Positions 20,159 to 33,576 of a DNA stretch of 48,396 bases are shown one piece after another. Source of the stretch: Prevotella sp. (lineage in GTDB: Bacteria; Bacteroidota; Bacteroidia; Bacteroidales; Bacteroidaceae); assembly GCA_017847725.1 (NCBI GenBank), contig JAGAXW010000012.1, positions 1 to 48,396 of the forward strand, given 5' to 3'. Every line of letters begins with the position of its first letter. Position 1 is the stretch's first letter. The notes beneath the pieces are model-generated. The model saw nothing but the letters and a program-made list of their open reading frames with translations. It did no database searches and was not told the origin of the DNA. The position numbers and the translations under genes are program-made.

Positions 20159-20776
20159 ATGAAAAAGATTTTCTTAGCACTGATGGCTGTTGCTGCCATC
20201 ACATTCACAACATCGTGTGGAAACAAAACCCAGCAGGGCGAGGCCGCTGCTGACAGCACAGAGGTAGCCGCCAACGCAGGGGACGAGGCCAGTAGCATCA
20301 TCGCTACCCTCAGCGAGCAACTCAACGCTGGCGATGCCACCAAGCTGCAGGCTACCCTCGAGACCGTCAAGGCCAAGGTTGCCGAGCTCATCAAGAACAA
20401 CCCCGAGGCTGCCAAGCAGTATGTCGAGCAGGTACAGAACTTTCTGAAGGAGAATGCAGACAAGGTGAAGGCCGTCGTAGGAGACAATGCCGCTGCTAAC
20501 GCAGCCGTCACGGCCCTGACCTCTGTAGAGCCCGAGACCATCGTCAATACCATCGTACAGCAGACTGGCGATGCCGCCGAGGCTGCCAAGGATGCTGCCG
20601 TTGACGCTGCAGCCCAGCAGGTAGACGCTGCCAAGGATGCCGCTCAACAGAAGGTTGAAGATGCCAAGGCCGCAGCCAAGCAGAAGGCTGAAGAGACCAA
20701 GGCTGCTGCCAAGCAGAAGGCCAGTGAGGCTGTCGACAACGCTGCCAAGGACATCAAGAAAGGACTCGGCCTGTAA
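20159..20776 (+). CDS. LEA-like Ala/Lys-rich lipoprotein
   Basis: This 205-residue protein has a signal peptide with lipobox TTSC (Cys20) and then low-complexity helical sequence. The C-terminal third is a run of roughly 11-residue amphipathic repeats of the type AAKDAAQQKVEDAKAAAKQK, similar to late embryogenesis abundant proteins and apolipoprotein-like helices. It is presumably anchored in the inner or outer membrane facing the periplasm. LEA-type proteins protect other proteins or membranes during desiccation or stress; that role is inference. It ends the TPR-ribH-xth cluster and is followed by a hairpin overlapping the next operon's control region. Confidence 0.75.
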   Translation: MKKIFLALMAVAAITFTTSCGNKTQQGEAAADSTEVAANAGDEASSIIATLSEQLNAGDATKLQATLETVKAKVAELIKNNPEAAKQYVEQVQNFLKENADKVKAVVGDNAAANAAVTALTSVEPETIVNTIVQQTGDAAEAAKDAAVDAAAQQVDAAKDAAQQKVEDAKAAAKQKAEETKAAAKQKASEAVDNAAKDIKKGLGL

Positions 20777-20787
20777 GCCACACGCCC

Positions 20788-20821
20788 GTTTCACTGAATA
20801 AAAGAGCCGTTTCGCTGAATG
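20788..20821 (+). promoter_or_regulatory. Candidate LytTR-type operator, site A
   Basis: Two 13-base direct repeats, gtttcactgaata (20788-20800) and gtttcgctgaatg (20809-20821), have a 21-base period, two turns of the helix. The second copy ends three bases before the -33 TTTG. The same arrangement precedes the VTC operon at 25972-26005. Paired direct repeats with this period next to a promoter are typical of LytTR-domain regulators, and one is encoded at 30809. Binding is inferred. Confidence 0.7.
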
Positions 20822-20846
20822 TTTTTTGCGAGACGGCTCTTTTTGT
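20801..20846 (+). terminator. Terminator of the LEA-like lipoprotein gene, overlapping operator A
   Basis: A 10-base stem (aaagagccgt 20801-20810 with acggctcttt 20833-20842) is followed by more T residues. It lies 25 bases after the lipoprotein stop. The left arm overlaps the second operator repeat and the loop contains the -33 box of the next operon. Confidence 0.75.
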
Positions 20847-20855
20847 CTACTTTTG
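20825..20855 (+). promoter_or_regulatory. Promoter of beta-helix operon A
   Basis: TTTG at 20825-20828, a 19-base spacer and TACTTTTG at 20848-20855 match the Bacteroidota -33/-7 pattern. The leader to the ATG at 20898 is about 38 bases. Confidence 0.7.
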
Positions 20856-20897: not shown

Positions 20898-22676
20898 ATG
20901 AAGAAGATGTTTTTCTTAGCACTGATTTCAGTGTTCACGGCAGTCCAGTATGCCTGCAGTAACAGCGATGCACAAGACGCGACCAACGAAGATACGGGAA
21001 GCGACCAGACAGGAGGCGGCACCTCGTCCAGCAGCCTGGGCACAGGCGACCTGTTCACCTTCACCGTTGCAGTCGACAAGACGACGGCCGAGCCCTCCTC
21101 GTCGGCCGATGCCTTCTATCCAGAGGCAGAAGACAACCTCGACGACAGCAGCAACAGCAGCGACTTCAGCACCGAGGTGGCTATCGACGTGTCGGGTATC
21201 AGCGACGGCGAATACAACGGCGTCACCGTCACCCACGATGGCAACAACATCGTCTGCAACCACGGCTCCAACAAGGTGTGCTACGTGCTCAGCGGCACCA
21301 CCACCAACAGTTCGGTGACCATCATTGGCGAGAAGAAGTGTAAAGTAGTGCTCAACAACGTCACCATCAACAGCACCGACAGTGCCGCTCTCAACATTCT
21401 CTGCAAGAAGCGTGCTTTCATCTACCTGCCCGAGGGAACCACCAACACCCTCACAGACACCAAGTGTAGCGACGACAACGAGCACAAGGGAGCACTCTAT
21501 GCCAAAGGTAAACTGCTGTTCCACGGCACAGGCACGCTGTCGGTCAACGGCAAGCATAACAACGGCATCCACTCTGCCGACTACATCATATTCAACAAGG
21601 GCAACAACATCTACGCCAGTTCTACTGCCAACCACGGTGTCAAGTCCAACGACGGCATTTTCATCAACGGCGGCATCCTCAATGTCGAGGTATCGGCAGC
21701 AGCAGCCAAGGGCATCAACTGTGAAGACAGCATTGTGGTACGCGGAGGTCGCACCACCGTCATCACCACTGGCACAGGAGCCTTCGACACCACCGAACAA
21801 GACGCCAAGGGCAGTGCCGGCATCAAGTCGGACACCAACTTTGCCCAGTACGGCGGTGAGGTCAGGCTCAAGAGCACCGGTTCGGGCGGCAAGGGTCTGA
21901 AGGTCGACGGCAAGGCCGACTTCTACGGTGGCACTATGTACGTCATCACCGAGGGTAGCGAGTACACCTACAACCGCAGCTACACAGCCTCTCCCAAGGG
22001 CATCAAGGTGGATGGCAACCTGACGCTCAACGACGGCGCCATCATGGTGAGAACCTCCAACCACGAGGCAGTAGAGTCGAAAGCCGCACTGACCATTAAC
22101 GGAGGCAGCATGTCGGCCTACTCCAAGAGCGACGACGCCATCAACTCTGCAGGCCACCTCACCGTCAACGGCGGCTACGTGCTGGCCTACTCGGCAGGCA
22201 ACGACGGCATGGATGCCAACGGCAACTGCTACATCAAGGGAGGTATCACGTATGCCATCGGCAGTTCGTCGCCCGAAGTGGCCATCGACGCCAACAGCGA
22301 GGGCGGCTACCAGCTCTACCTCACGGGAGGAACGCTCATCGCAGTGGGCGGACTGGAGAACGGCGCAAGCCTCAGTCAAACCTGCTACCAGGCCTCATGG
22401 AGCCGCAACACGTGGTACGCCCTGACCACCAGCGACAACACCCTGGCGTTCCAGACACCGGCCTCTGGAGGCACCAGCCTCGTGGTGTCGGCCCCCTCTA
22501 CCCCATCCCTCACATCTGGCGTAACAGTCAGCGACGGCACCACATGCCTGGGCGGAATGGGCTATACAGCCAGCACCGTCAGCGGTGGCTCCACCGTCTC
22601 GCTCTCCACCTATTCGGGCGGCAACGGCATGGGTGGCGGAGGAATGCCCGGTGGTGGAATGCCTGGCGGAAGATAA
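20898..22676 (+). CDS. DUF4353 (Cthe_2159-like) beta-helix surface lipoprotein
   Basis: This 592-residue protein has a signal peptide with Cys20 (QYAC) and an acidic Ser/Thr-rich linker (20-95). From about 100 to 510 it has regular repeats of the form G-I-x-S/C-D, V/I-x-I-x-GG-x, a right-handed parallel beta-helix as in the DUF4353 family. The founding member Cthe_2159 binds cellulose and polygalacturonate and contains calcium. The C-terminal module (NHEAVESKAALTINGG, GNDGMDANGNCYIKGG, SPEVAIDANSEGGYQLY) is shared with the protein at 24058. The tail is a Gly/Met/Pro segment (GGGGMPGGGMPGGR). It is first in operon A, under promoter 20825-20855. Carbohydrate or metal binding at the cell surface is inferred. 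Confidence 0.85.
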   Translation: MKKMFFLALISVFTAVQYACSNSDAQDATNEDTGSDQTGGGTSSSSLGTGDLFTFTVAVDKTTAEPSSSADAFYPEAEDNLDDSSNSSDFSTEVAIDVSGISDGEYNGVTVTHDGNNIVCNHGSNKVCYVLSGTTTNSSVTIIGEKKCKVVLNNVTINSTDSAALNILCKKRAFIYLPEGTTNTLTDTKCSDDNEHKGALYAKGKLLFHGTGTLSVNGKHNNGIHSADYIIFNKGNNIYASSTANHGVKSNDGIFINGGILNVEVSAAAAKGINCEDSIVVRGGRTTVITTGTGAFDTTEQDAKGSAGIKSDTNFAQYGGEVRLKSTGSGGKGLKVDGKADFYGGTMYVITEGSEYTYNRSYTASPKGIKVDGNLTLNDGAIMVRTSNHEAVESKAALTINGGSMSAYSKSDDAINSAGHLTVNGGYVLAYSAGNDGMDANGNCYIKGGITYAIGSSSPEVAIDANSEGGYQLYLTGGTLIAVGGLENGASLSQTCYQASWSRNTWYALTTSDNTLAFQTPASGGTSLVVSAPSTPSLTSGVTVSDGTTCLGGMGYTASTVSGGSTVSLSTYSGGNGMGGGGMPGGGMPGGR

Positions 22677-22697
22677 ACCCACACAATCCTGAAAGAT

Positions 22698-23087
22698 ATG
22701 AAAAGAACCATCATCATAGCTCTTGCATGCCTGCTCACAGTAGGCATGCAAGCCTCGGACTACCTTTATCTGGTATTCACCCAGAGCAACGGCACGACGA
22801 CAGCCGTCACAGCCTCTGACCTCACCATCAGTTTCAACGACGGCTACCTGGTGGCCACCAGCGGTTCGACAACGCTGGCCAACCTGGAGCTGACCTCGCT
22901 GACAAAGATGGAATTCTCAAACGACGACACGTCGGGTATCGAGCAGATTACCGTCGACACGCTGATCAGCGACGAAGACACCGTAATCTACGACCTCAAC
23001 GGCCGCAAGATGCCCCAAGGCGCACTGCCCAAGGGCGTGTATATCGTGAAGAACAGTAAAAGAACCTTTAAAATGCAGATTAAATGA
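22698..23087 (+). CDS. Small secreted protein with type IX-like C-terminal tail
   Basis: The 129-residue protein has a signal peptide (cleavage near MQASD), a short beta domain (YLYLVFTQSNGTTTAVTASD to LTSLTKMEFS) and a C-terminal segment VIYDLNGRKMPQGALPKGVY. That last segment resembles the tails of type IX secretion cargo and of many secreted Prevotella proteins. The beta domain alone resembles the leader region often fused to larger surface proteins, so this may be a stand-alone partner of the beta-helix proteins. It follows the first beta-helix gene by 21 bases and overlaps the next by ATGA. Function unknown. Confidence 0.72.
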   Translation: MKRTIIIALACLLTVGMQASDYLYLVFTQSNGTTTAVTASDLTISFNDGYLVATSGSTTLANLELTSLTKMEFSNDDTSGIEQITVDTLISDEDTVIYDLNGRKMPQGALPKGVYIVKNSKRTFKMQIK

Positions 23088-24061
23088 AGCAGTTCCTTTT
23101 CCTCGCAGCCCTGCTGGCCATGGGCACCCCCCGGATGCTGGCCGCCGACGCCAACACCGTAGAGATAGCCTATAGCGGCACGACAGCTACCGTCACCATT
23201 GCCGACAACATTGCCTCGTATGTGACGGCCTCGGCCAACGGTGCCCACGTCACCATCACGCAGACCAACACGGCCGATGTGGACGGCGCAGAAATCACCT
23301 ACATCCTGTCGGGCACGTCGACCAACGGCGAGTTCTATCTCAACGGTTCGTACAAGTGTACCGTCTCCCTGAACGGACTGACGCTCACCAACCCCTCCGG
23401 AGCCGCCATCAGCATCATCAACGGCAAGCGTATCAAGGTGAAGGCCGAGACCAACACCGAGAACACCCTCGTCGACGGCAGTGGCTCGCAGAAAGGCTGC
23501 CTCTACGTAAAGGGACACCTGGAACTTCGCGGCTACGGCACGCTGAATGTCACGGGCAACTTCGCCCACGGCATCAAGAGTGGCGAGTACATGTCGGTGA
23601 AGAACCTGACCGTCAACGTCAAGTCCGCCGTGAAGGACGGCATGAACTGCAATGAATACTTCCTGATGGAGAGCGGCACGGTGAACATCACCAATGCCGC
23701 CGGCGACGGCATCCAGTGCGACATCGACAATACGGCAGGCACCTCCATTGCAGCCTCGGACGACCAGCACACCGACGAGGACACGGGCAACGTCTATATG
23801 ACCGGCGGTACGCTGAACATCGCACTGGCCAGCACGTCGACCGGCAAGCTCATCAAGGCGGCAGGCGAAATCAGCATGACAGGCGGCACCTACAATGGTG
23901 TGACAGGCATCGAGACAGTGCCGGTCAGCACTACAGCTACCAGTGCTCCGTCGGCCATCTACGACCTGAGCGGACGACAGTATGCCGACGGCAGCGCCCT
24001 GCCCCACGGAGTCTATATCATTCACAACAATGGAAAAACATACAAAGTGAACGTGAAATGA
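23084..24061 (+). CDS. Secreted DUF4353 beta-helix protein with type IX-like tail
   Basis: This 325-residue protein has a signal peptide (cleavage near MLAAD, about 20) and a DUF4353 beta-helix domain (about 25-285), including VTITQTNTADVDGAEITYIL, GSYKCTVSLNGLTLTNPSGA and GSGSQKGCLYVKGHLELRG. The tail AIYDLSGRQYADGSALPHGV resembles a type IX sorting signal. It is closely related along its length to the N-terminal half of the next gene's product, so the two arose by tandem duplication. Start and stop overlap both neighbours by four bases (ATGA), so translation is coupled. A ligand-binding role at the surface is inferred from Cthe_2159. Confidence 0.83.
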   Translation: MKQFLFLAALLAMGTPRMLAADANTVEIAYSGTTATVTIADNIASYVTASANGAHVTITQTNTADVDGAEITYILSGTSTNGEFYLNGSYKCTVSLNGLTLTNPSGAAISIINGKRIKVKAETNTENTLVDGSGSQKGCLYVKGHLELRGYGTLNVTGNFAHGIKSGEYMSVKNLTVNVKSAVKDGMNCNEYFLMESGTVNITNAAGDGIQCDIDNTAGTSIAASDDQHTDEDTGNVYMTGGTLNIALASTSTGKLIKAAGEISMTGGTYNGVTGIETVPVSTTATSAPSAIYDLSGRQYADGSALPHGVYIIHNNGKTYKVNVK

Positions 24062-25965
24062 AACAAATACTATTAGCCATAACGGCGCTCCTGTCCGCCG
24101 CATCCGTACAGGCACAGACGCTGAACGTGACAACGGGCAGCAACGTCACCGACCAGTATCCAGCCACACAGGCCGGCGAGATGACCTATACCTCCGGCAC
24201 ACAGCTGACGATACTGAACAAGACCTACAACCTCAGCGAGATAACCTCCATGACCACGGACGAGACGAGCGTCACCGACAATCAGGTCAACATCGTCTAC
24301 AACGGCAGCGAGGCGCTCGTCTACGTAGCCGGCAACGTGGCCCAGTATGTCAACGTCACCGTCAGCGGTGCCAAGGTGTACGTCAACCAGACCAATACCG
24401 ATGCCGTGGACGGCGACGAGATTACCTACGTGCTGAGCGGTACGTCGACCGACGGCCAGTTTGCGCTCGACGGCTCGTACAAATGCACCGTCTCGCTGAA
24501 CAACGTGACGCTGACCAACCAGAGCGGTGCCGCCATCAGCATCGGCAATAAGAAGCGCATCCAGATCAGTGCCAAGAGCGGTACGACGAACACGCTGGCC
24601 GACTGCGCCAATGGTTCGCAGAAGGGCTGCATCTACTCGAAGGGACAAATCCAGCTGCAGGGCAACGGCACGCTGAACGTCTACGGCTATACCAAGCACG
24701 CCATCAAGTGTGGCGACTACGTCAGCATCAAGAACCTGACCCTGAACATTCTGAATGCCGTAGGCGACGGCATCAACGCCAACAAGTATTTCCTGATGAA
24801 GAGCGGCACGGTGACCATCAGCGGCGTGGGCGACGACGGTATCCAAAGCGACTATGAGAGCGACGACGCCACCACCGGCGAGACCACCGACCACGAGGAC
24901 GAGAACTCGGCCAACACCTACATCGAGGGTGGCACGCTCGACGTCACCGTGACGGCCGCTGCCACCAAGAGCATCAAGGCCTCCGGCGACCTGAACATCA
25001 GCGGCGGCACCATCACCGTCAAGGCCAGCGGCGCCTATGCCTACGACTCGACGGACAGTGAGTACAAGAGTGCCTCGTGCCTGAACAGTGACGGCAACAT
25101 GACCATCAGCGGCGGCACCATCACCTGCACCGCCTCGGGCTATGCCGGCAAGGGCATCAAGTGCGACGGCGTGCTGACCGTCACCGACGGCACCATCTCG
25201 GCAACGGCATCGGGCAGCAGCAGCGACACCTACGGCTCGGCCAAGGCCATCAAGGCCGGCACGAAGACGGAAGTATCCTCGTCCCGTCTCGCAGGCCCTG
25301 GCGGCGGTGGATGGGGCCCCGGCGGTGGCGGTGGCGGTGGCGGCAACAGCGGCAACTACACCTACAGCGGCGGCATGGTCGTCAGTGGCGGCACCATCTA
25401 TGCCAAGGCCAGCAGCCACGAGGCCATCGAGTCGAAGAACACCCTCGACATCTCGGGCGGCACCATCTATGCCGAGTCCAGCGACGATGCCATCAACGCA
25501 GCCTCTACGCTGACCATCACGGGCGGCAACGTCTACGCCTACTCTACCGGCAACGACGGCATGGACGCCAACGGCAACTTCTACATCAAGGGCGGCAACC
25601 TGGTAGCCATCAGCGCAGGCAGTCCTGAGGTGGCCTTCGACGCCAACACCGAGGGGGGCTACAAGCTCTACATCACGGGCGGCAACGTCGTAGCCGTGGG
25701 CGGTCTGGAGAGCGGCAGCAGCCTGAGCGGCGTGACCAGCCGGTCGACATCGTACAACAAGAACACCTGGTATACGTTCAAGAACGGCTCGACGTCGGCC
25801 TTCTCGTTCAAGATACCCAGCACGGCGTCCAGCGGCGGCGGATGGGGTCCAGGTGGCGGCTCGTCGTCCTCGTCGATGACCATCGTCGCCACCAGCACAC
25901 CAAGCATCTCGACGGGCTCCATCAGCGGCACCACCATCTGGAATGGCTACGGCATTGTCAACTAA
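24058..25965 (+). CDS. Large secreted DUF4353 beta-helix protein
   Basis: The 635-residue protein has a signal peptide (LLSAASVQAQ, about 20) and no lipobox. Residues about 70-330 match the preceding gene's product. Residues about 450-600 match the C-terminal module of the protein at 20898 (SSHEAIESKNTLDISGG, GNDGMDANGNFYIKGG, SPEVAFDANTEGGYKLY). It therefore looks like a fusion of the two types. Two Gly-rich loops are conspicuous: GPGGGGWGPGGGGGGGG near 420 and SGGGWGPGGGSSSSS near the end. The ATG at 24058 overlaps the previous stop (ATGA). It closes operon A; no strong terminator lies between it and the VTC operon, so some read-through is possible. Confidence 0.83.
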   Translation: MKQILLAITALLSAASVQAQTLNVTTGSNVTDQYPATQAGEMTYTSGTQLTILNKTYNLSEITSMTTDETSVTDNQVNIVYNGSEALVYVAGNVAQYVNVTVSGAKVYVNQTNTDAVDGDEITYVLSGTSTDGQFALDGSYKCTVSLNNVTLTNQSGAAISIGNKKRIQISAKSGTTNTLADCANGSQKGCIYSKGQIQLQGNGTLNVYGYTKHAIKCGDYVSIKNLTLNILNAVGDGINANKYFLMKSGTVTISGVGDDGIQSDYESDDATTGETTDHEDENSANTYIEGGTLDVTVTAAATKSIKASGDLNISGGTITVKASGAYAYDSTDSEYKSASCLNSDGNMTISGGTITCTASGYAGKGIKCDGVLTVTDGTISATASGSSSDTYGSAKAIKAGTKTEVSSSRLAGPGGGGWGPGGGGGGGGNSGNYTYSGGMVVSGGTIYAKASSHEAIESKNTLDISGGTIYAESSDDAINAASTLTITGGNVYAYSTGNDGMDANGNFYIKGGNLVAISAGSPEVAFDANTEGGYKLYITGGNVVAVGGLESGSSLSGVTSRSTSYNKNTWYTFKNGSTSAFSFKIPSTASSGGGWGPGGGSSSSSMTIVATSTPSISTGSISGTTIWNGYGIVN

Positions 25966-25971
25966 GACCGT

Positions 25972-26005
25972 GGTTCGCTGAACGAAACAGCGCGTTCGTT
26001 GAACG
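25972..26005 (+). promoter_or_regulatory. Candidate LytTR-type operator, site B
   Basis: Two 13-base direct repeats, ggttcgctgaacg (25972-25984) and cgttcgttgaacg (25993-26005), have a 21-base period and end two bases before the -33 TTTG. They share the core TTC(A/G)(C/T)TGAA with site A, and the distance to the -7 box differs by only one base (27 here, 28 at site A). The local LytTR regulator is the obvious candidate binder. Confidence 0.72.
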
Positions 26006-26007
26006 GA

Positions 26008-26039
26008 TTTGCAAGATGTGGGAGTAAAGGCTAACTTTG
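26008..26039 (+). promoter_or_regulatory. Promoter of the VTC operon
   Basis: TTTG (26008-26011), a 20-base spacer and TAACTTTG (26032-26039) form a consensus promoter. The leader to the ATG at 26067 is about 23 bases. Confidence 0.8.
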
Positions 26040-26066
26040 CAGTAGGAAACCTAATAGCACACTATT

Positions 26067-26810
26067 ATGACGGAACTGTTAAAAGCCTTTGCTCCCATAT
26101 CGTTGGAGCAGATGTCGGGAGTGAAACTGATGAACCGCACCGACACCAAGTTTGTGACCACCACAGAGAAGCTGAGGCAACTGCTGCAGATGGCACGTCA
26201 GGACTACTACGTGCAGGAGATAGACGGCCAGCGCAACCTGGAGTACGACACCACCTACTTCGACACCCTGCAGTACGACATGTACCGGCAGCACCAGTAC
26301 GGACACGCCAACCGCCAGAAGATACGCTTCCGCACCTACTGCATCTCGGGCCTGCAGTTCATGGAGGTAAAGACCAAGAACAACCACGGCCGCACGAAGA
26401 AGAAGCGCATCGAGGTGAAGGACATGGACGTGCACGAGCAGCAGAAGAGCGACTTTCTCGGCCAGTACCTGCACTACAGCATAGACACGCTGCAGCCCGT
26501 GCTGAACAACCACTTCAGCCGCATCACACTGGTCAACAAGGCCAAGACGGAGCGCCTGACCATCGACTCGGCCCTGACGTTCAGCAACCTCGTCAGCGGT
26601 GAGGAGAAAGACATGGGCAACTTGGTCATCGTCGAGCTGAAGCGCGACGGCATGGTCTACTCGCCAGTCCTGGAGATGCTCCGCCAGCTGCACATCCATC
26701 CCCACGGCTTCTCGAAATACTGCATGGGGTCGGCCCTCACCAACCCCGAGCTGCCCGTCAACCGCTTCAAGCGCAAGCTCATCGAGATCAAGAAAATCGT
26801 CGGCAATTAG
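26067..26810 (+). CDS. VTC-domain protein, polyphosphate polymerase homologue
   Basis: This 247-residue protein is a stand-alone VTC domain, related to the catalytic tunnel domain of yeast Vtc4 and the CYTH/triphosphate tunnel fold. Basic and acidic tunnel residues are in place: RTDTKF (24-29), YFDT (64-67), KIRFR (85-89), EVK (100-102), a Lys/Arg run (109-118), ELKR (190-193) and FSKYC (215-219). Yeast Vtc4 makes inorganic polyphosphate from ATP. Bacterial members usually sit beside a DUF4956 membrane protein, as here with 24 bases between, which may serve as the membrane part. It lacks the SPX domain of the yeast protein. The chemistry is inferred by homology. Confidence 0.88.
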   Translation: MTELLKAFAPISLEQMSGVKLMNRTDTKFVTTTEKLRQLLQMARQDYYVQEIDGQRNLEYDTTYFDTLQYDMYRQHQYGHANRQKIRFRTYCISGLQFMEVKTKNNHGRTKKKRIEVKDMDVHEQQKSDFLGQYLHYSIDTLQPVLNNHFSRITLVNKAKTERLTIDSALTFSNLVSGEEKDMGNLVIVELKRDGMVYSPVLEMLRQLHIHPHGFSKYCMGSALTNPELPVNRFKRKLIEIKKIVGN

Positions 26811-26834
26811 CAATAACCCAAAACAACATACACT

Positions 26835-27515
26835 ATGAGTAACTTATTTTCTGCCGGATTCGGCGACACCCTACTGAGATTCGTCATCTGCATCCTGGTG
26901 AACTGGTTCATCGTACACTTCCTGTACTTCAAGAAAGGCAAGCGCCGCGACTTCTACTTCACCTTCATCATCATATCGCTGGCCATCTACTTCCTCGTCT
27001 ACCTCATGATGGGCATGGAACGCGGCAAGGCCACGATGGGTGTCGGCCTGGGACTGTTCGGCATCTTCAGCATCATGCGCTACCGCACCGACAGCATGCC
27101 TGTGCGCGAGATGACCTACCTCTTCGTCGTCGTATGCCTGTCGGTGGTACACGCCATGGCCTCCTCCATGGGTGTCGATGCCTACGGCACCATGACCGGC
27201 ACGCCGCTGCCCGAGCTCATCGTCATCGACGCCATCACCATCTGCGTCATCTTTATCTTTGAGAAGTTCCTGAAGACCAACGCCTCGAAACTCATCCAGT
27301 ATGACCGTGTAGAGCTCATCCGCCCCGAGCGCCGCACCGAGCTGGTCGAAGACCTCACCAAGCGTACCGGGCTGAAGGTGCTCAACGTGGAGGTCGGCTC
27401 CATCGACTTCCTGCGCGACATGGTGATGCTGCGCGTCTATTACGAGTCGGGCGCTGGCAAGAAGGACGTCGACAATATGCTGAAAATCAAGAACTCAGAG
27501 TTAGGAAATTTCTAA
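26835..27515 (+). CDS. DUF4956 inner-membrane protein
   Basis: The 226-residue protein has about five membrane segments in its first 145 residues (FVICILVNWFIVHFLYF, FTFIIISLAIYFLVYLMMG, a glycine-rich GVGLGLFGIFSIMRYRTDS, TYLFVVVCLSVVHAM, VIDAITICVIFIFEKF) and a cytoplasmic C-terminal domain of about 80 residues. This is DUF4956, which is commonly paired with VTC-domain proteins. A role in anchoring the polymerase or moving its product across the membrane is plausible but inferred. The MRYRTDSMPVREM motif after the third helix is the family's most conserved part as I recall it. Confidence 0.88.
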   Translation: MSNLFSAGFGDTLLRFVICILVNWFIVHFLYFKKGKRRDFYFTFIIISLAIYFLVYLMMGMERGKATMGVGLGLFGIFSIMRYRTDSMPVREMTYLFVVVCLSVVHAMASSMGVDAYGTMTGTPLPELIVIDAITICVIFIFEKFLKTNASKLIQYDRVELIRPERRTELVEDLTKRTGLKVLNVEVGSIDFLRDMVMLRVYYESGAGKKDVDNMLKIKNSELGNF

Positions 27516-27520
27516 ATAAC

Positions 27521-28312
27521 ATGACACCTATGAAAACGAATAATTGGCCGAAAGGCATGCGCTACGCCATAGTCCTGCTGTTCACGCTCTACGCTGCCGT
27601 CCCCACTGCCAGCGCCCAGAGCGAGGGCGGCCTGCTGCTGGAGGCCGGAGCAGAGAAGAAACTGAGCCGCCAGTGGAGCCTGTCGCTGGATGCCGACTTC
27701 CGCACGCGCAACAACTTCAAGACCGTTGACCGCTGGAGCATCGGACTGAGCGCCGAGTACAAGCCGCTCAAGTGGCTGAAGGCATCGGCAGGCTACATCC
27801 TGCTCGACAACCACTTCCGCGAGGACATCAGCTACCAGACGCTCTACGGCATCAAGTCCTACAACAACTGGCGCCCCAGCTACTGGGGCATCCGCCACCG
27901 CCTGCACGCATCGCTGACAGGAAGCCACAAGTTTGCAAACAACATCCGCATTTCGCTGCGCGAGAGGTGGCAGTACACCTACCGCCCGGAGAAGACCGTA
28001 GAGCGCTGGGACTTCGACAACAGCCAGTGGGAGGACAAGGTGCGCAGCGGCAAGGGCAAGAACCAGCTGCGCTCCCGCCTGCAGGTGGAGTACGACAAGA
28101 AGCGCTCCCTCTTCACCCCCTTCGTCAGCACAGAGTTCTATCATGCCTGGGCCATTGAGAAGGTGCGCTTCAACGTCGGCACGGACATCCGCCTCAACAA
28201 GGCGCACTCGCTCACCGTGTTCTACCGATTCCAGAAGATGCACAACGTCGACGAAGACGAATACGACCCTGACATGCACTATCTGGGTCTGGGCTACAAA
28301 TTTAAATTCTAA
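27521..28312 (+). CDS. DUF2490 outer-membrane beta-barrel protein
   Basis: The 263-residue protein has a signal peptide (cleavage near ASAQS) and beta strands alternating with short turns, ending in YLGLGYKFKF, a typical barrel-closing C-terminus. WSLSLDADFRTRNNFKTVDR and RHRLHASLTG fit the DUF2490 family. An outer-membrane pore in this operon could pass or bind material linked to the VTC/DUF4956 pair (inference). The start may be the ATG at 27521 or the one at 27530. It is five bases from the next gene and five from the previous one, clearly one operon. Confidence 0.83.
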   Translation: MTPMKTNNWPKGMRYAIVLLFTLYAAVPTASAQSEGGLLLEAGAEKKLSRQWSLSLDADFRTRNNFKTVDRWSIGLSAEYKPLKWLKASAGYILLDNHFREDISYQTLYGIKSYNNWRPSYWGIRHRLHASLTGSHKFANNIRISLRERWQYTYRPEKTVERWDFDNSQWEDKVRSGKGKNQLRSRLQVEYDKKRSLFTPFVSTEFYHAWAIEKVRFNVGTDIRLNKAHSLTVFYRFQKMHNVDEDEYDPDMHYLGLGYKFKF

Positions 28313-28317
28313 CCATT

Positions 28318-29508
28318 ATGAGCAAACATTCATTATCATATCTCCTCGCCGCCGGCCTTCTGCTGTGTGGCTGCAAGAACGACGACACCGACTTCAGCGC
28401 CTACACCTCCGGCAGCGGCGACGGCACAGTGACCACCATCTACATCGACTATAGCGGCACCAGCGCCACCGTCAGCGGCGACTCGCAGGGCGTCGTGTCG
28501 GTCAGCGGGGCCCACGTGAGGGTCGTCTCGCAGGCGGCCGACTCGCTGCTGCTCGTGCTCAGCGGCTCTACCACCGACGGCTCACTCCTCGTCAGCCGCA
28601 ACAACAGCTACGGCATCCTGCTCAACGCGGTGAGCATCACCAATCCCTCAGGGGCAGCCATCAACAACCAGGGCAAGAAGTCGCTATACGTCGCGTGTGC
28701 CGACGGCACCACCAACACGCTCGTGGACGGCACGACATACACCACGCAGGACTTCGACCAGAAGGCCACGCTCTTCAGCGAGGGCGACCTCTACCTCTGC
28801 GGCGCTGGTACGCTGAACGTCACGGCCAACCACCAGAACGCCATAGCCAGCGACGACAAGCTGGTGATAGCAGACGACGTCGTCGTCAACACCACGACAG
28901 CCGCCACAGGCTCCAACGGACTGAAGGCCAACGACGGTGTCTACATCAACGGCGGCACGACGACCATCGACGTGCTGTCGGACGCCGGCCGCGGCATCAA
29001 GTGCGACTCGACGATGTTCATCAACGGCGGCACGACGACCATCACCACCTCTGGGGCCTGCACCTTTACGACCACCGACGGCACCGTCATCACTGAGAGC
29101 CAGCGCCCGGAGTATACGGACGAGCAGGTGGCCGACACCACGTCGGCAGCGTGCATCAAGAGCGACGGCAAGCTGACCATGACGGGCGGCTCGCTGACGT
29201 GCACCAGCAGCGGCAGCGGCGGCAAGGGCATCAACTGTAGCGCCGACGTCGTCGTCAGCGGCGGCACGCTGAACGTGACCACCACGGGCGACAACACCTA
29301 CAGCAAGCCCAAGGGCGTCAAGAGCGACACGGCCATCATCGTCAGCGGCGGCTCCTTCAAGGTCAGCGTCAGCAAGAGCTGGGCGTGCGACAACGGCTAC
29401 GAGGACGACACCCTGTCGAACGCAGAGCTGGCACTGCGACGCATCACCGTCGAGGGCACGCCGTCGACATCGTCCATCGCCAAGAAATATGTATACATCG
29501 TCTATTAG
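28318..29508 (+). CDS. DUF4353 (Cthe_2159-like) beta-helix lipoprotein
   Basis: This 396-residue lipoprotein has a lipobox ending LLCGC (Cys19). Its beta-helix domain (about 35-360) shares GTTNTLVDG, NAIASDDKLVI, GSNGLKANDGVYINGG, GRGIKCDSTMFINGG and GGKGINCSADVVVSGG with the operon A proteins. The family call rests on these repeats. It lacks the Gly-rich tail and the GNDGMDANG module, and ends in a short extension (ITVEGTPSTSSIAKKYVYIV). Its presence in the VTC operon rather than operon A ties the two operons together functionally. Confidence 0.84.
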   Translation: MSKHSLSYLLAAGLLLCGCKNDDTDFSAYTSGSGDGTVTTIYIDYSGTSATVSGDSQGVVSVSGAHVRVVSQAADSLLLVLSGSTTDGSLLVSRNNSYGILLNAVSITNPSGAAINNQGKKSLYVACADGTTNTLVDGTTYTTQDFDQKATLFSEGDLYLCGAGTLNVTANHQNAIASDDKLVIADDVVVNTTTAATGSNGLKANDGVYINGGTTTIDVLSDAGRGIKCDSTMFINGGTTTITTSGACTFTTTDGTVITESQRPEYTDEQVADTTSAACIKSDGKLTMTGGSLTCTSSGSGGKGINCSADVVVSGGTLNVTTTGDNTYSKPKGVKSDTAIIVSGGSFKVSVSKSWACDNGYEDDTLSNAELALRRITVEGTPSTSSIAKKYVYIVY

Positions 29509-29524
29509 TATAAGGTATAAAGGA

Positions 29525-29554
29525 ATGAAGAAGATAGTATTAATCGGCAAGTAG
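29525..29554 (+). CDS. Possible nine-residue leader peptide
   Basis: An ATG preceded by AAGGA opens a frame for MKKIVLIGK, then TAG. It lies in the 75-base gap between the beta-helix lipoprotein and the histidine kinase. It could be a translated leader or chance; the purine-rich site before it is the only support. Confidence 0.2.
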   Translation: MKKIVLIGK

Positions 29555-29583
29555 CACACAATATTCTAACACCACTATCCGTT

Positions 29584-30798
29584 ATGTATTCAATAAGAAC
29601 GGCCTATTGGATGAAAAACCAGTCACGCTTGGAGAACATCATGTACTTGGCACTGTGGGGCATGCTCTTTGCCGCCCCCGTGCTGAGCCTGTATGTCCAT
29701 ACCCTCATGGAGCCGACAGAGACGTTCAGCTGGCAGGAGGTGCTGATGGTGTGGAGCCGCTTTGCCGTCTTCCTGGGCCTGTTTCTGGTGCACAACTTCT
29801 TCATCGCCCCCCTGCTGATCCACGAGCACAAGCCCGTCGTCTACGGAGCCATCGCGGCGAGCATCGTGGTGATATTCACGCTCTACGAGTGCAGCACCGG
29901 ACCGACACCCAGCGCCAGAGGGCAGCGCCCCATGCAGGAGATGATGGCCGGCGAGCGTCCGCCCCTGCCCACCGACGAGATGGGCGAAGGCCCGCACGGT
30001 GAGATGAGAGGGCCGCACGAAGGTCCAGTGCCGCACGACAAGGCCGACCACAGACCCCCCGTGTTCATCGGCGAGCACGACATCATAGCCGTGCTGATAC
30101 TCCTCATGATGTTCGGCATCAACCTGGCCATCAAGGGATTCTTCCGCCACCGCAACGACGAGAAGAAATACATCGAGATGCAGAAGGAGAACCTGGAGCA
30201 GCAGCTGGAGTACCTGAAATACCAGCTCAACCCGCACTTCCTGATGAACACGCTGAACAACATCCATGCCCTGGTCGACATCGATGCCGAGCAGTCGAAG
30301 GAGGCCATCATCCACCTCTCCAAGATACTGCGCTACGTGCTCTACGAGAGCAACAAGGAGCGCGTGCCCGTATCCCAGGAACAGGAGTTCATGTCCAACT
30401 ACGTCACGCTGATGCGCATGCGCTACACCGACAAGCTGCGCTTCACGGTCGACTCGCCCGACGACGGCCGCGGCGTCTACATCGCCCCGCTGGTGTTCAT
30501 CTCCTTCGTCGAGAACGCCTTCAAACACGGCGTGAGCTACCAGCAGGAGAGCTTCATCGAGATTGCGGGCAAGCGCTACCGCGACAAGCTTGGCGGCGAA
30601 CGCCTGCTCTGGACCTGCCGCAACAGCAAGCACAACCGGCCGCAAGGGTCGGCCACGCCCGCACAGGGCGGCGTGGGGCTGCAGAACGTGCGGCGGCGAC
30701 TGGACCTGATCTACGGCAACAACTACTCCCTGGGGGTCAACGAGACGGATACCACCTACGAGGTCATCCTCGACATCCCGATGGATACACACAGATAA
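29584..30798 (+). CDS. LytS/YehU-type sensor histidine kinase
   Basis: This 404-residue kinase has four predicted membrane segments (about 18-40, 54-80, 84-104 and 165-187). Between the third and fourth is an unusual periplasmic or loop region of about 60 residues rich in Pro, Gly, His and acidic residues (GEGPHGEMRGPHEGPVPHD). The cytoplasmic part carries the His_kinase motif LKYQLNPHFLMNTLNN with the phospho-accepting His218, and an ATPase region with FVENAFKHG and GVGLQNVRRRLDLIYG. It pairs with the LytTR regulator 10 bases downstream. The His/acid-rich loop suggests a metal or polyanion as the signal (inference). Confidence 0.93.
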   Translation: MYSIRTAYWMKNQSRLENIMYLALWGMLFAAPVLSLYVHTLMEPTETFSWQEVLMVWSRFAVFLGLFLVHNFFIAPLLIHEHKPVVYGAIAASIVVIFTLYECSTGPTPSARGQRPMQEMMAGERPPLPTDEMGEGPHGEMRGPHEGPVPHDKADHRPPVFIGEHDIIAVLILLMMFGINLAIKGFFRHRNDEKKYIEMQKENLEQQLEYLKYQLNPHFLMNTLNNIHALVDIDAEQSKEAIIHLSKILRYVLYESNKERVPVSQEQEFMSNYVTLMRMRYTDKLRFTVDSPDDGRGVYIAPLVFISFVENAFKHGVSYQQESFIEIAGKRYRDKLGGERLLWTCRNSKHNRPQGSATPAQGGVGLQNVRRRLDLIYGNNYSLGVNETDTTYEVILDIPMDTHR

Positions 30799-30808
30799 CG
30801 AATACCGC

Positions 30809-31531
30809 ATGATAAGAGTATTAGCCATTGACGACGAGCCGCTGGCGCTCAGACAGCTGGCCGCCTACATCGGCAAGGTGCCCTACCTCGAGCTGGCGGC
30901 ACAGTGCCAGAGCGCCATCGAGGCGCGCGACTTCCTGGAGCACGACACCGTCGACGCCATCTTCTGCGACATCAACATGCCCGACCTCAACGGCATGGAC
31001 TTTGTCAAGTCGCTCACCTTTGCACCGCTGATAGTCTTCACCACCGCCTATGCCGAGTACGCCGTCGAGGGCTTCAAGGTGGCCGCCGTCGACTACCTGC
31101 TCAAGCCCTTCGGGCTGCAGGACTTCCAGCGTGCCGCCCAGCGCCTGCGCGAACGCATCGAGGGTCCGCAGGTCGAGCGTGCGCCTGCCGCCACGCCCCC
31201 GCCCTCCACGCTCTTCCTCAAGACCGAGTACCGCATCGTCAAGGTGAACATCGACGACATCCGCTACGTCGAGGCCATGAGCGAGTACCTGAAGGTGCAC
31301 CTCGAGGGCGAGCCGAGGCCCATCGTCACGCTGCTCTCCATGAAGAAGATGGAGGAGCGCCTGCCCGACTACTTCATGCGCATCCACCGCTCCTACATCA
31401 TCAACCTCACCAAGATTCAGGAGGTCAACAAGAACCGCATCATCATGGATGCCGACACCTACCTGCCCATCGGCGACATCTACAAAGAGGCCTTCCAGCG
31501 CTATCTCGACAGCAATTTTCTTGGCAAATAA
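30809..31531 (+). CDS. LytTR family response regulator
   Basis: The 240-residue regulator has an N-terminal receiver domain with the acidic pair Asp8-Asp9, phospho-acceptor Asp54 (CDINMPDLNG), TTAYAEYA and LKPFG. A Pro-rich linker (about 123-135) leads to a C-terminal LytTR DNA-binding domain (KTEYRIVKVNIDDIRYVEAM, then FMRIHRSYIINL). It is encoded with its LytS kinase. LytTR proteins bind pairs of short direct repeats one or two helical turns apart; exactly such pairs precede both operons of this cluster (20788-20821 and 25972-26005). I infer that it controls both. Confidence 0.94.
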   Translation: MIRVLAIDDEPLALRQLAAYIGKVPYLELAAQCQSAIEARDFLEHDTVDAIFCDINMPDLNGMDFVKSLTFAPLIVFTTAYAEYAVEGFKVAAVDYLLKPFGLQDFQRAAQRLRERIEGPQVERAPAATPPPSTLFLKTEYRIVKVNIDDIRYVEAMSEYLKVHLEGEPRPIVTLLSMKKMEERLPDYFMRIHRSYIINLTKIQEVNKNRIIMDADTYLPIGDIYKEAFQRYLDSNFLGK

Positions 31532-31557: not shown

Positions 31558-33576
31558 ATGAACAGACTATGCTTCTTTCTTTCGGCCCTGCTGCTGGCGG
31601 TCACCGCCTCGGCCCAGATGGCCGACCCCGTACACTTCGCGTCGCAGCTCACGGAGCTTAGCGACGGCGAGGCCGAGATTGTCTTCACCGCCCGCATCGA
31701 CGACGGATGGCACGTCTACTCCACCCGCCTGGGCGACGGCGGCCCCATCAGTGCCACGTTCAACGCCGTCACGATGGACGGTGTCGAGACCGTCGGCGAG
31801 CTGAAGCCGCGCGGCCAGGAGCAGCAGTCGTTCGACCGCCTGTTCGGCATGCAGGTGCGCTACTTCGAGCATGCCGCCACCTTCGTGCAGCGCATCCGCA
31901 TCACGAAGCCCCGCTACGTCATCGACTGCTATCTGGAGTATGGCGCCTGCAACGACCAGATGTGCCTGCCGCCACAGACGGCAGCCTTCAAGACCACCCA
32001 CGAGCCTGCCGCCGCCCCTGAGCCTGCCGCGGCAAAGGCCGACACCGCCGCAGCAGCTGCCGCAGCCGACACGGCTGCCGCCCAGCCGGTCGAGGCAGAT
32101 ACGGCCGCTACGGACACGCCAGTCATCGCCGCCCCCGCAGCCCTCCCCGCCGAGGGTGCTGCCGACGCCGGCGGCTCCTCGCTCCTGTTCATCTTCGGAG
32201 CCGGACTGCTGGCGGGACTGCTGGCCCTGCTCACGCCCTGCGTGTGGCCCATCATCCCCATGACCGTCTCGTTCTTCCTGAAGCGCAACAAGGAGCATGC
32301 CACCGCCATACGCGAGGCCGTGGTCTACGGCCTCTCCATCATCGTCATCTACGTGCTGCTGGGACTGCTCGTGACCCTGCTCTTCGGGGCCAACGCCCTC
32401 AACGCCCTGTCCACCAACGCCTGGTTCAACATCTTCTTCGCCCTGCTGCTCGTCGTCTTCGCCGCCTCCTTCATGGGCGCCTTCGAGCTCACGCTGCCCG
32501 CCTCGTGGTCTGACGCCATCGACCGCAAGGCCGACCAGCTGGGCAGCAAGGGCCGCGGCGGCGTAGCCTCCTACCTGTCCATCTTCCTCATGGCCTTCAC
32601 GCTGGCCCTCGTGTCCTTCTCGTGCACGGGCCCCATCGTCGGCGTACTGCTCGTAGCCGTCTCCACGCAGGGCGAACTGCTGGGGCCCACCGTCGGCATG
32701 CTGGGCTTCGCCATCGGACTGGCCGTGCCCTTCGCCTTCTTCGCCATGTTCCCCTCGCTGCTCAGCTCCATGCCCAAGTCGGGCGGCTGGATGAACACCG
32801 TCAAGGTGACGCTGGGCTTCGTCGAGCTGGCCTTCGCCCTCAAGTTCCTGTCCGTGGCCGACCTGGCCTACGGGTGGCACCTGCTCGACCGCGACGTGTT
32901 CATCGCACTGTGGATAGTCATCTTCGGCCTTCTGGGCGCCTATCTCCTCGGCTGGCTGCACCTCGGCCACAAGGGAAGACAGCCCGTAGGCCTCCTGCGC
33001 CGACTGGGCGGCATCGCCGTGCTGCTCTTCACCCTCTATATGGTGCCCGGACTGCTCGGCGCACCCCTCAAGGCCATCAGCGCCTTCACCCCTCCCATGT
33101 ACACCCAGCACCTGCACGTGCTGTCGGGCGTCAGCGTCGAGGCCCGCTTCCGCGACTACGACGAGGGCATGCGCTACGCACGCGAGCACGGACAGCCCGT
33201 GGTGCTCGACTTCACAGGCTTCGGCTGCGTCAACTGCCGCAAGATGGAGGGGGCCGTATGGACCGACGACGAGGTGGCCAGCCGCCTGACCGACGACTTC
33301 GTGCTCATCTCCCTCTACGTCGACGACAAGACGCCCCTGCCCCAGCCCGTCGAGGTGAGCGTGGGCGGACAGCAGCGCACGCTGCGCACCGTGGGCGACC
33401 GCTGGAGCCACCTGCAGGCCGCCAAGTTCGGAGCCAACACGCAGCCCTACTACGTGGTGCTCACGCCCGACGAGCGCCCACTGGGCCCCGTACGCTCCTA
33501 CGACGAAGACGTCGACGCCTACCTGCGCTGGCTCGACGATGCCCTCAGACAATGGAAACAACTGAACTCAAAATAG
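31558..33576 (+). CDS. dsbD: Thiol:disulfide interchange protein DsbD with thioredoxin domain
   Basis: This 672-residue protein has a signal peptide (1-19), an N-terminal DsbD-alpha-like domain with the Cys pair ACNDQMC (about 130), an Ala/Pro/Thr-rich linker (about 145-200), an eight-helix membrane core with Cys228 (TPCVWPIIP) and Cys356 (FSCTGP), and a C-terminal thioredoxin-like domain with CVNC (Cys557, Cys560). It passes electrons from cytoplasmic thioredoxin to periplasmic disulfide isomerases and cytochrome maturation proteins. All six Cys residues for relay are present. An open frame extends far upstream within the regulator gene; the ATG at 31558 follows the signal-peptide logic and promoter. 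The PorT-like gene follows after 16 bases. Confidence 0.94.
   Translation: MNRLCFFLSALLLAVTASAQMADPVHFASQLTELSDGEAEIVFTARIDDGWHVYSTRLGDGGPISATFNAVTMDGVETVGELKPRGQEQQSFDRLFGMQVRYFEHAATFVQRIRITKPRYVIDCYLEYGACNDQMCLPPQTAAFKTTHEPAAAPEPAAAKADTAAAAAAADTAAAQPVEADTAATDTPVIAAPAALPAEGAADAGGSSLLFIFGAGLLAGLLALLTPCVWPIIPMTVSFFLKRNKEHATAIREAVVYGLSIIVIYVLLGLLVTLLFGANALNALSTNAWFNIFFALLLVVFAASFMGAFELTLPASWSDAIDRKADQLGSKGRGGVASYLSIFLMAFTLALVSFSCTGPIVGVLLVAVSTQGELLGPTVGMLGFAIGLAVPFAFFAMFPSLLSSMPKSGGWMNTVKVTLGFVELAFALKFLSVADLAYGWHLLDRDVFIALWIVIFGLLGAYLLGWLHLGHKGRQPVGLLRRLGGIAVLLFTLYMVPGLLGAPLKAISAFTPPMYTQHLHVLSGVSVEARFRDYDEGMRYAREHGQPVVLDFTGFGCVNCRKMEGAVWTDDEVASRLTDDFVLISLYVDDKTPLPQPVEVSVGGQQRTLRTVGDRWSHLQAAKFGANTQPYYVVLTPDERPLGPVRSYDEDVDAYLRWLDDALRQWKQLNSK

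Follow-up and report, generated by a model that had tools for sequence, protein, structure and literature searches.

In a 48,396-nucleotide stretch of a Prevotella sp. genome (contig JAGAXW010000012.1; the whole stretch is called the window below), ten plus-strand genes fill positions 20898-31531 and form two groups, each led by a promoter. The first group comprises beta-helix genes 1-3 and a gene for a small exported protein, and the second runs VTC-DUF4956-DUF2490-beta-helix lipoprotein and continues with the genes for a histidine kinase and a LytTR response regulator. We propose, with a probability of roughly 0.6, that the two groups belong to one signal-controlled envelope regulon, in which the LytTR protein drives both the beta-helix operon and the VTC operon, the latter likely making polyphosphate. 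This reading is carried by a direct repeat that precedes both promoters and that, in relatives, goes with the kinase.

A direct repeat precedes both promoters

The families of the ten proteins were assigned by a Pfam search, and the gene calls and Pfam matches upheld an original prediction, made from the DNA letters, that ten contiguous same-strand genes lie here. Neighbouring genes overlap by 4 bp or are separated by at most about 25 bp, except for two wider gaps, one of about 100 bp in front of VTC and one of 75 bp in front of the kinase. The repeat was first spotted by reading both intergenic regions; it has the form TTCRYTGAA-N12-TTCRYTGAA and ends 4-5 bases before the TTTG (-33 element) at both promoters:

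20790..20819, plus strand: direct repeat TTCACTGAA-N12-TTCGCTGAA before the beta-helix operon, a perfect consensus match and proposed LytTR site
20825..20855, plus strand: promoter-like TTTG-N19-TACTTTTG before beta-helix gene 1
25974..26003, plus strand: direct repeat TTCGCTGAA-N12-TTCGTTGAA before the VTC operon, a perfect consensus match and proposed LytTR site
26008..26039, plus strand: promoter-like TTTG-N20-TAACTTTG before VTC

TTTG-N19/20-TAnnTTTG is the Bacteroidetes promoter consensus, and this pattern was found seven times in the window against 0.15 matches expected. It does not occur on the plus strand in the 75 bp before the kinase gene, so that kinase and regulator may be transcribed from the VTC promoter. 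The two repeats are the only perfect copies in the 2.39-Mb assembly, which is 80.6% complete; one further copy, with one mismatch, lies on another contig. Passages of one account of LytTR regulators (PMC11347149) describe the canonical site as a pair of 9-bp direct repeats 10-13 bp apart, and most of these regulators as activators binding upstream of the -35 element. The predicted sites share this geometry, with 9-bp repeats 12 bp apart upstream of a promoter. The simplest reading of the sequence is that the neighbouring LytTR protein likely controls both groups, its own operon included, and the presence of the same regulatory repeat before each operon supports the joint control that had been expected of them.

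The kinase and regulator form a LytTR-type system

The last two of the ten genes encode the putative sensor and its regulator:

29584..30798, plus strand: histidine kinase of 404 residues (PF06580, E 6.2e-24), with four hydrophobic segments and a Pro/Met/His/acid-rich loop at about residues 104-165
30809..31531, plus strand: response regulator of 240 residues, with Response_reg and LytTR DNA-binding domains

A receiver joined to a LytTR domain thus adjoins a PF06580 kinase, and the Pfam matches bear out the dedicated two-component system that had been predicted. The 5TM-5TMR_LYT sensor domain is the mark of LytS proper. Apart from His_kinase, no domain was found in the kinase at E values up to 0.01, which places it in the LytS/YehU class rather than making it LytS itself; the earlier label of LytS/LytTR therefore holds for the receiver-LytTR regulator beside a PF06580 kinase and fails for LytS proper. 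Between hydrophobic segments 3 and 4 lies a loop of about 66 residues which, in 34 sequences, is poorly conserved in order and alike in make-up (Pro 18.5%, Arg 11.6%, Glu 9.1%, Asp 8.7%, His 8.0%, Met 6.2%). His and Met together account for a median of 16% of the loop (minimum 1.5%), compared with 6.3% of the part after it. The loop probably faces the periplasm, outside the inner membrane.

Kinase orthologues, delimited by a cut-off set in the within-genus gap between 4e-64 and 3e-41, were found in 22 of 36 genomes of the genus. A Cthe_2159 (beta-helix) gene lies directly upstream of the kinase in 16 of these 22, as a fragment in the case of G007.

The repeat goes with the kinase in related genomes

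We then scanned 104 related loci (1,717,689 bases) for pairs of TTCRYTGAA half-sites with at most one mismatch in total. A period of 21 bp gave 34 pairs, and every other period from 12 to 33 gave none or one; among these pairs, at least two come from a single contig that entered the set twice (L038, L060). All but one of the pairs (33/34) sit 29-134 bp ahead of VTC, small-protein/Cthe_2159 or kinase genes, and the remaining one (L055) precedes a gene for a 456-residue secreted repeat protein. When up to three mismatches were allowed, the site was present in 48 of 100 distinct VTC upstream regions against 1 of 96 control stretches taken 1.3-1.5 kb farther upstream, and TTTG follows the pair directly in most of 51 aligned sites. 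Since the consensus was derived from the window and a few relatives, most of the other genomes are nearly independent tests.

The repeat was then compared with the presence of the kinase. Perfect copies (23, in 13 genomes) occur exclusively in kinase-positive genomes, that is, in 13/22 of these against 0/14 of the other genomes of the genus (p 2.5e-4), and are absent from 24 genomes elsewhere in the order. For loci whose genome is known, the VTC promoter carries a site of up to three mismatches in 11 of the 12 rows with the kinase, one of them the window, and in none of the 13 rows without it (p 2.7e-6); within the genus the figures are 11/12 and 0/3 (p 0.009). Seen from the kinase, 15 of 17 testable loci among 18 carry a site before the first gene of the operon or before the kinase itself; of the others, L246 is cut off, L252 has four mismatches and L254, from another family, has no site. 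One-mismatch matches in 60 genomes numbered 74 against 11 for the reversed pattern, and those outside kinase-positive genomes look like background.

We also considered whether the repeat might be a general promoter feature. This was not supported, as no site within three mismatches precedes DUF4956 (0/91), DUF2490 (0/87) or the regulator (0/19), nor, as noted above, VTC in kinase-negative genomes. Among the 52 VTC promoters lacking the motif, another 21-bp repeat at 9/10 identity was seen in four, at least three of which are of low complexity.

Several observations weigh against a common regulon. The 52 VTC upstream regions without the repeat are themselves about half of the 100, and the kinase status is known for few of them. 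Across the genus, VTC and kinase are weakly associated (12/15 versus 10/21, p 0.083), and one kinase-positive genome (G014, L040) has no repeat at VTC. Three changes suffice to explain the kinase label on the VTC tree, and the lineages are related, so the p-values overstate the case; several genomes, that of the window among them, are incomplete. In L177, from another genus of the family, VTC-DUF4956-DUF2490-Cthe_2159-kinase-regulator stand in the order of the window, yet no repeat occurs within three mismatches, which may mean a change of specificity in that lineage or a reading that does not hold beyond the genus. Finally, no structural link of DUF4956 or DUF2490 to polyphosphate was found.

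A perfect half-site followed by a degenerate one about 42 bp later was seen by eye in L177; this was post hoc and was not counted. G013, which is near the window on the VTC tree, has neither kinase nor site; this assembly stands at 84% completeness, and a TGA within the family match breaks the VTC gene (L027).

The VTC protein and its partners

Downstream of the second repeat lie three genes which recur together:

26067..26810, plus strand: VTC-domain protein of 247 residues (PF09359, E 3.3e-30), a likely polyphosphate polymerase
26835..27515, plus strand: DUF4956 membrane protein of 226 residues (Pfam, E 2.4e-48)
27521..28312, plus strand: DUF2490 protein of 263 residues (Pfam, E 9.3e-24; isoelectric point 9.7), a probable outer-membrane barrel

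The VTC protein has a triphosphate-tunnel fold nearest to VTC proteins, with a clear fold match to Vtc4 over other tunnel enzymes, and 32 positions, many of them K, R or E, are invariant in 23 sequences. A search of the PDB with the single sequence gave no match; a profile matched Vtc4 weakly (E 0.005), with the invariant positions aligned in part at weak scores. K28 falls at Vtc4 residue 200 if the alignment is ungapped. PPK1 was found in none of 15 VTC genomes of the genus compared with 4 of 21 others, which is weak evidence (p 0.12), and nominal significance was reached only when VTC- and kinase-positive genomes were pooled (0/25 versus 4/11, p 0.006). Because of the fold, the conserved residues and the failure to detect PPK1 or PPK2, the VTC protein likely makes polyphosphate.

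VTC-domain proteins occur in 48 of 296 sampled genomes of the phylum. Among 60 genomes searched, DUF4956 accompanies VTC in all 25 that have it, in agreement with its predicted role as the usual VTC partner. R82 and R84 of DUF4956 are invariant in 64 sequences, and no solved sequence relative of this protein was detected. In a survey of 80 named related loci, some of which are copies of genomes counted in other samples, DUF4956 follows VTC in 68 of 74 loci with room for it, and 68 of 70 have DUF2490 next. Directly after DUF2490 stands a Cthe_2159 gene in 33 of 67 loci. The VTC-DUF4956-DUF2490-Cthe_2159 arrangement is thus more than chance. The kinase or regulator is present in 14 of the 80 loci, and in 9 of the 40 that extend 9 kb or more to either side; its position varies, upstream or downstream of VTC and on either strand, so that the link is not one inherited arrangement.

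VTC-DUF4956 pairs on an Aminobacter plasmid (L133) and a Deinococcus plasmid (L131) lie beside a gene for a phytase-like esterase or a HAD acid phosphatase. On a Pseudoalteromonas plasmid (L130), a lamin-tail gene precedes DUF4956 and a porin gene comes directly after it, so that DUF4956 has an outer-membrane barrel as its neighbour in a different phylum too.

Across the genus, Cthe_2159 accompanies both the kinase (20/22 versus 4/14, p 2e-4) and VTC (15/15 versus 9/21, p 3e-4), kinship being uncorrected in both cases. Strict co-conservation of the two groups was rejected: in six genomes with the Cthe_2159-kinase-regulator group no VTC was found, and in three with VTC (G013 among them) no kinase orthologue was found. 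Of the earlier expectation that the operons are conserved together, joint control stands through the shared repeat, and strict co-occurrence does not, as the groups are often apart. One regulator could then serve two functions, an intracellular or periplasmic polyphosphate store made by VTC-DUF4956 and a separate layer of beta-helix adhesins that responds to the same signal without contact. The occurrence of each group where the other was not found, their location on different contigs in six genomes and the lack of direct evidence for export speak for such a separation. Nevertheless, the Cthe_2159 lipoprotein gene directly behind DUF2490 and the near-constancy of the barrel as a VTC partner in the genus speak against it, and we regard it as rather unlikely.

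A different role for VTC is suggested by CotH. Pfam detected no CotH among the ten genes, as originally predicted, and this absence is limited to the locus: one copy lies on another contig (C56), which rules out an organism without CotH. CotH is present in 17 of 53 VTC loci of the phylum, together with VTC, DUF4956 and DUF2490 in, for example, L166, L167, L175 and L182, and a Deinococcus plasmid carries CotH-VTC-DUF4956. In the genus it is found in 15/15 VTC genomes versus 11/21 others (p 0.002, kinship uncorrected), and in one genome (G031, L240) kinase, regulator and CotH run together behind a one-mismatch repeat, by which CotH appears to have joined the regulon. VTC might therefore transfer phosphate to a surface polymer or protein in a CotH-type phosphorylation pathway, with no free polyphosphate. 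However, the locus itself lacks CotH and the VTC fold is nearest to the polyphosphate polymerase Vtc4, so that we find this pathway quite improbable.

The beta-helix and small exported proteins

Both groups encode proteins of PF14262 (Cthe_2159), which we take to be the former DUF4353:

20898..22676, plus strand: beta-helix protein 1 of 592 residues (PF14262, E 1.6e-45), with a lipoprotein-like start (YACSNSD)
22698..23087, plus strand: small exported protein of 129 residues with a YDLNGRK...GVYIVK tail, a conserved partner of Cthe_2159 genes
23084..24061, plus strand: beta-helix protein 2 of 325 residues (PF14262, E 1.5e-38), with the tail type of the small exported protein
24058..25965, plus strand: beta-helix protein 3 of 635 residues (PF14262, E 6.1e-55), matching solved chain 4peu (E 1.4e-10)
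28318..29508, plus strand: beta-helix lipoprotein 4 of 396 residues (PF14262, E 6.9e-43), starting ...LLLCGCKNDD

The four beta-helix proteins scored 133-187 bits against a family cut-off of 25.8; proteins 1 and 4 have ten cysteines apiece. A simple lipobox pattern is present in the Cthe_2159 protein after DUF2490 in 32 of 40 loci, and in several of these acidic residues such as CKNDD stand behind it. Acidic residues after the lipobox cysteine resemble the surface-export signals of this phylum. The small exported protein has no Pfam match and has copies in twelve related loci; a Cthe_2159 gene overlaps the end of its gene in 13 of 14 copies by script, as in the window (4 bp). Its tail resembles those of type IX secretion cargo: when five relatives were compared with Por_Secre_tail, four gave matches, all below the cut-off (E 0.008-0.2), whereas the small protein and beta-helix protein 2 of the window gave none; SprA, of the type IX secretion system, is encoded in the genome of the window. 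As Cthe_2159 occurs in only 2 of the 53 VTC loci of the phylum (L145, L177), the beta-helix partner is a trait of this lineage and not of the phylum.

Cthe_2159 binds acidic polysaccharide and calcium. The lipoproteins might accordingly bind polygalacturonate with calcium while the kinase senses pectin, polyphosphate being a secondary energy or stress store. This would suit the 80 named relatives, which are Prevotella, Prevotellaceae, Bacteroidaceae or unclassified bacteria with many titles naming ruminant stomachs, and in L223 a one-mismatch site lies 301 bp ahead of a pectinesterase-domain protein. However, Pfam found no known glycan enzyme or SusC/SusD-type protein among the ten genes, and the recurrent additional target is a Spy-like protein rather than a glycan enzyme. 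We therefore hold a pectin system to be very doubtful.

A further candidate target and the proposed mechanism

The one-mismatch copy in the genome of the window (contig C7, 27599-27628; L219) lies 125 bp ahead of a gene whose DUF4890/LTXXQ product weakly matches E. coli Spy (E 0.004), and the contig ends right behind this gene. DUF4890 proteins also stand behind sites in four other genomes (G007, G025, G027, G035), and some have His/Pro/Met/Arg-rich stretches similar to the kinase loop. Sites that occurred once, before genes for a TolC-like, a HAD-like, an OMP_b-brl_3 barrel, a HEPN and the pectinesterase protein, are not claimed as targets. Cpx/Spy-type systems are envelope stress responses, and the likeness is that a sensor regulon includes a Spy/LTXXQ-type periplasmic protein. 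The present system differs in its PF06580 kinase and LytTR regulator and in a regulon with a polymer synthase and beta-helix proteins. We put forward, as a proposal, that the Spy-like protein dampens the sensor in a Cpx-like loop and that the signal is a cation or envelope damage.

In the regulon that we favour, the kinase, with its His/Met/acid-rich loop, would sense an envelope or cation signal and phosphorylate the regulator, as their families suggest. The regulator would bind the repeat just before the -33 element and activate two promoters, the first yielding acidic secreted beta-helix proteins and the second VTC-DUF4956-DUF2490-beta-helix lipoprotein and probably also kinase and regulator; the weaker site elsewhere in the genome may add the Spy/CpxP-like periplasmic protein. 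VTC would build polyphosphate from ATP on the cytoplasmic side, and at the inner membrane DUF4956 may take up the chain or hand it on. The basic DUF2490 barrel could then see to the passage of the outer membrane, and the acidic beta-helix lipoproteins might work on the cell surface, perhaps with calcium as a bridge. Of this scheme, the genes, their conservation, the common sites and the tie of these sites to the kinase are established, a single envelope regulon under LytTR control is well supported, and VTC likely makes polyphosphate; export to the surface through DUF4956 and DUF2490 and display with the lipoproteins are inferred. The fullest version, a surface-polyphosphate machine in which VTC-DUF4956 makes the chain and transfers it over the inner membrane, DUF2490 passes it through the outer one, lipoproteins hold it through calcium, and the kinase turns the coat on when it meets cations or envelope damage, with the Spy-like protein as feedback, seems to us unlikely.

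Neighbouring genes

Beyond the regulator are genes for a DsbD-like protein (31561-33576) and an outer-membrane barrel protein; the DsbD-like gene also follows the kinase and regulator genes in two relatives (L043, L245). The upstream neighbour (20159-20776) encodes a lipoprotein-like product with long Ala/Lys/Glu repeats and a sub-threshold apolipoprotein match. An SRP RNA of the Bacteroidales type marks the window as Bacteroidales DNA.

Relation to known systems and significance

The yeast VTC complex combines the Vtc4 tunnel domain with membrane subunits; here Pfam found no SPX domain in the 247-residue protein, and the partners are DUF4956 and an outer-membrane barrel. Passages on Gram-positive Pel clusters (PMC7112168) describe an accessory set of CotH, polyphosphate polymerase (VTC) and DUF4956, which resembles the present locus in placing VTC with DUF4956 beside genes for cell-surface polymers, whereas our locus lacks CotH and has DUF2490, Cthe_2159 proteins and a LytTR two-component system. 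A passage on C. perfringens NELoc-2 (PMC2879425) lists VTC genes, genes called tubulin and CotH together, and our guess is that these tubulin genes are DUF4956. In B. thetaiotaomicron, BT3498-BT3499 appear in part of another report (PMC10434189) as a DUF4956-DUF2490 pair, adjoining as they do here. A literature search, with subscription journals mostly outside its scope, returned no paper on DUF4956 with VTC, on Vtc4 with residue names or on polyphosphate polymerase with Prevotella. The DUF2490/Cthe_2159 form under a LytTR-type repeat is new, in that no account of it was found in the literature searched.

In that literature, no function is stated for the bacterial VTC-DUF4956 pair. Here, a specific DNA signal connects the pair with a single sensor and with secreted proteins, and no other polyphosphate kinase was detected in these genomes. 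What was an annotation becomes an envelope response that can be tested, for which promoter, regulator and predicted polymer are at hand and whose signal a promoter reporter could reveal. A possible phosphate-polymer coat likewise becomes testable and, if shown, would be of greater interest.

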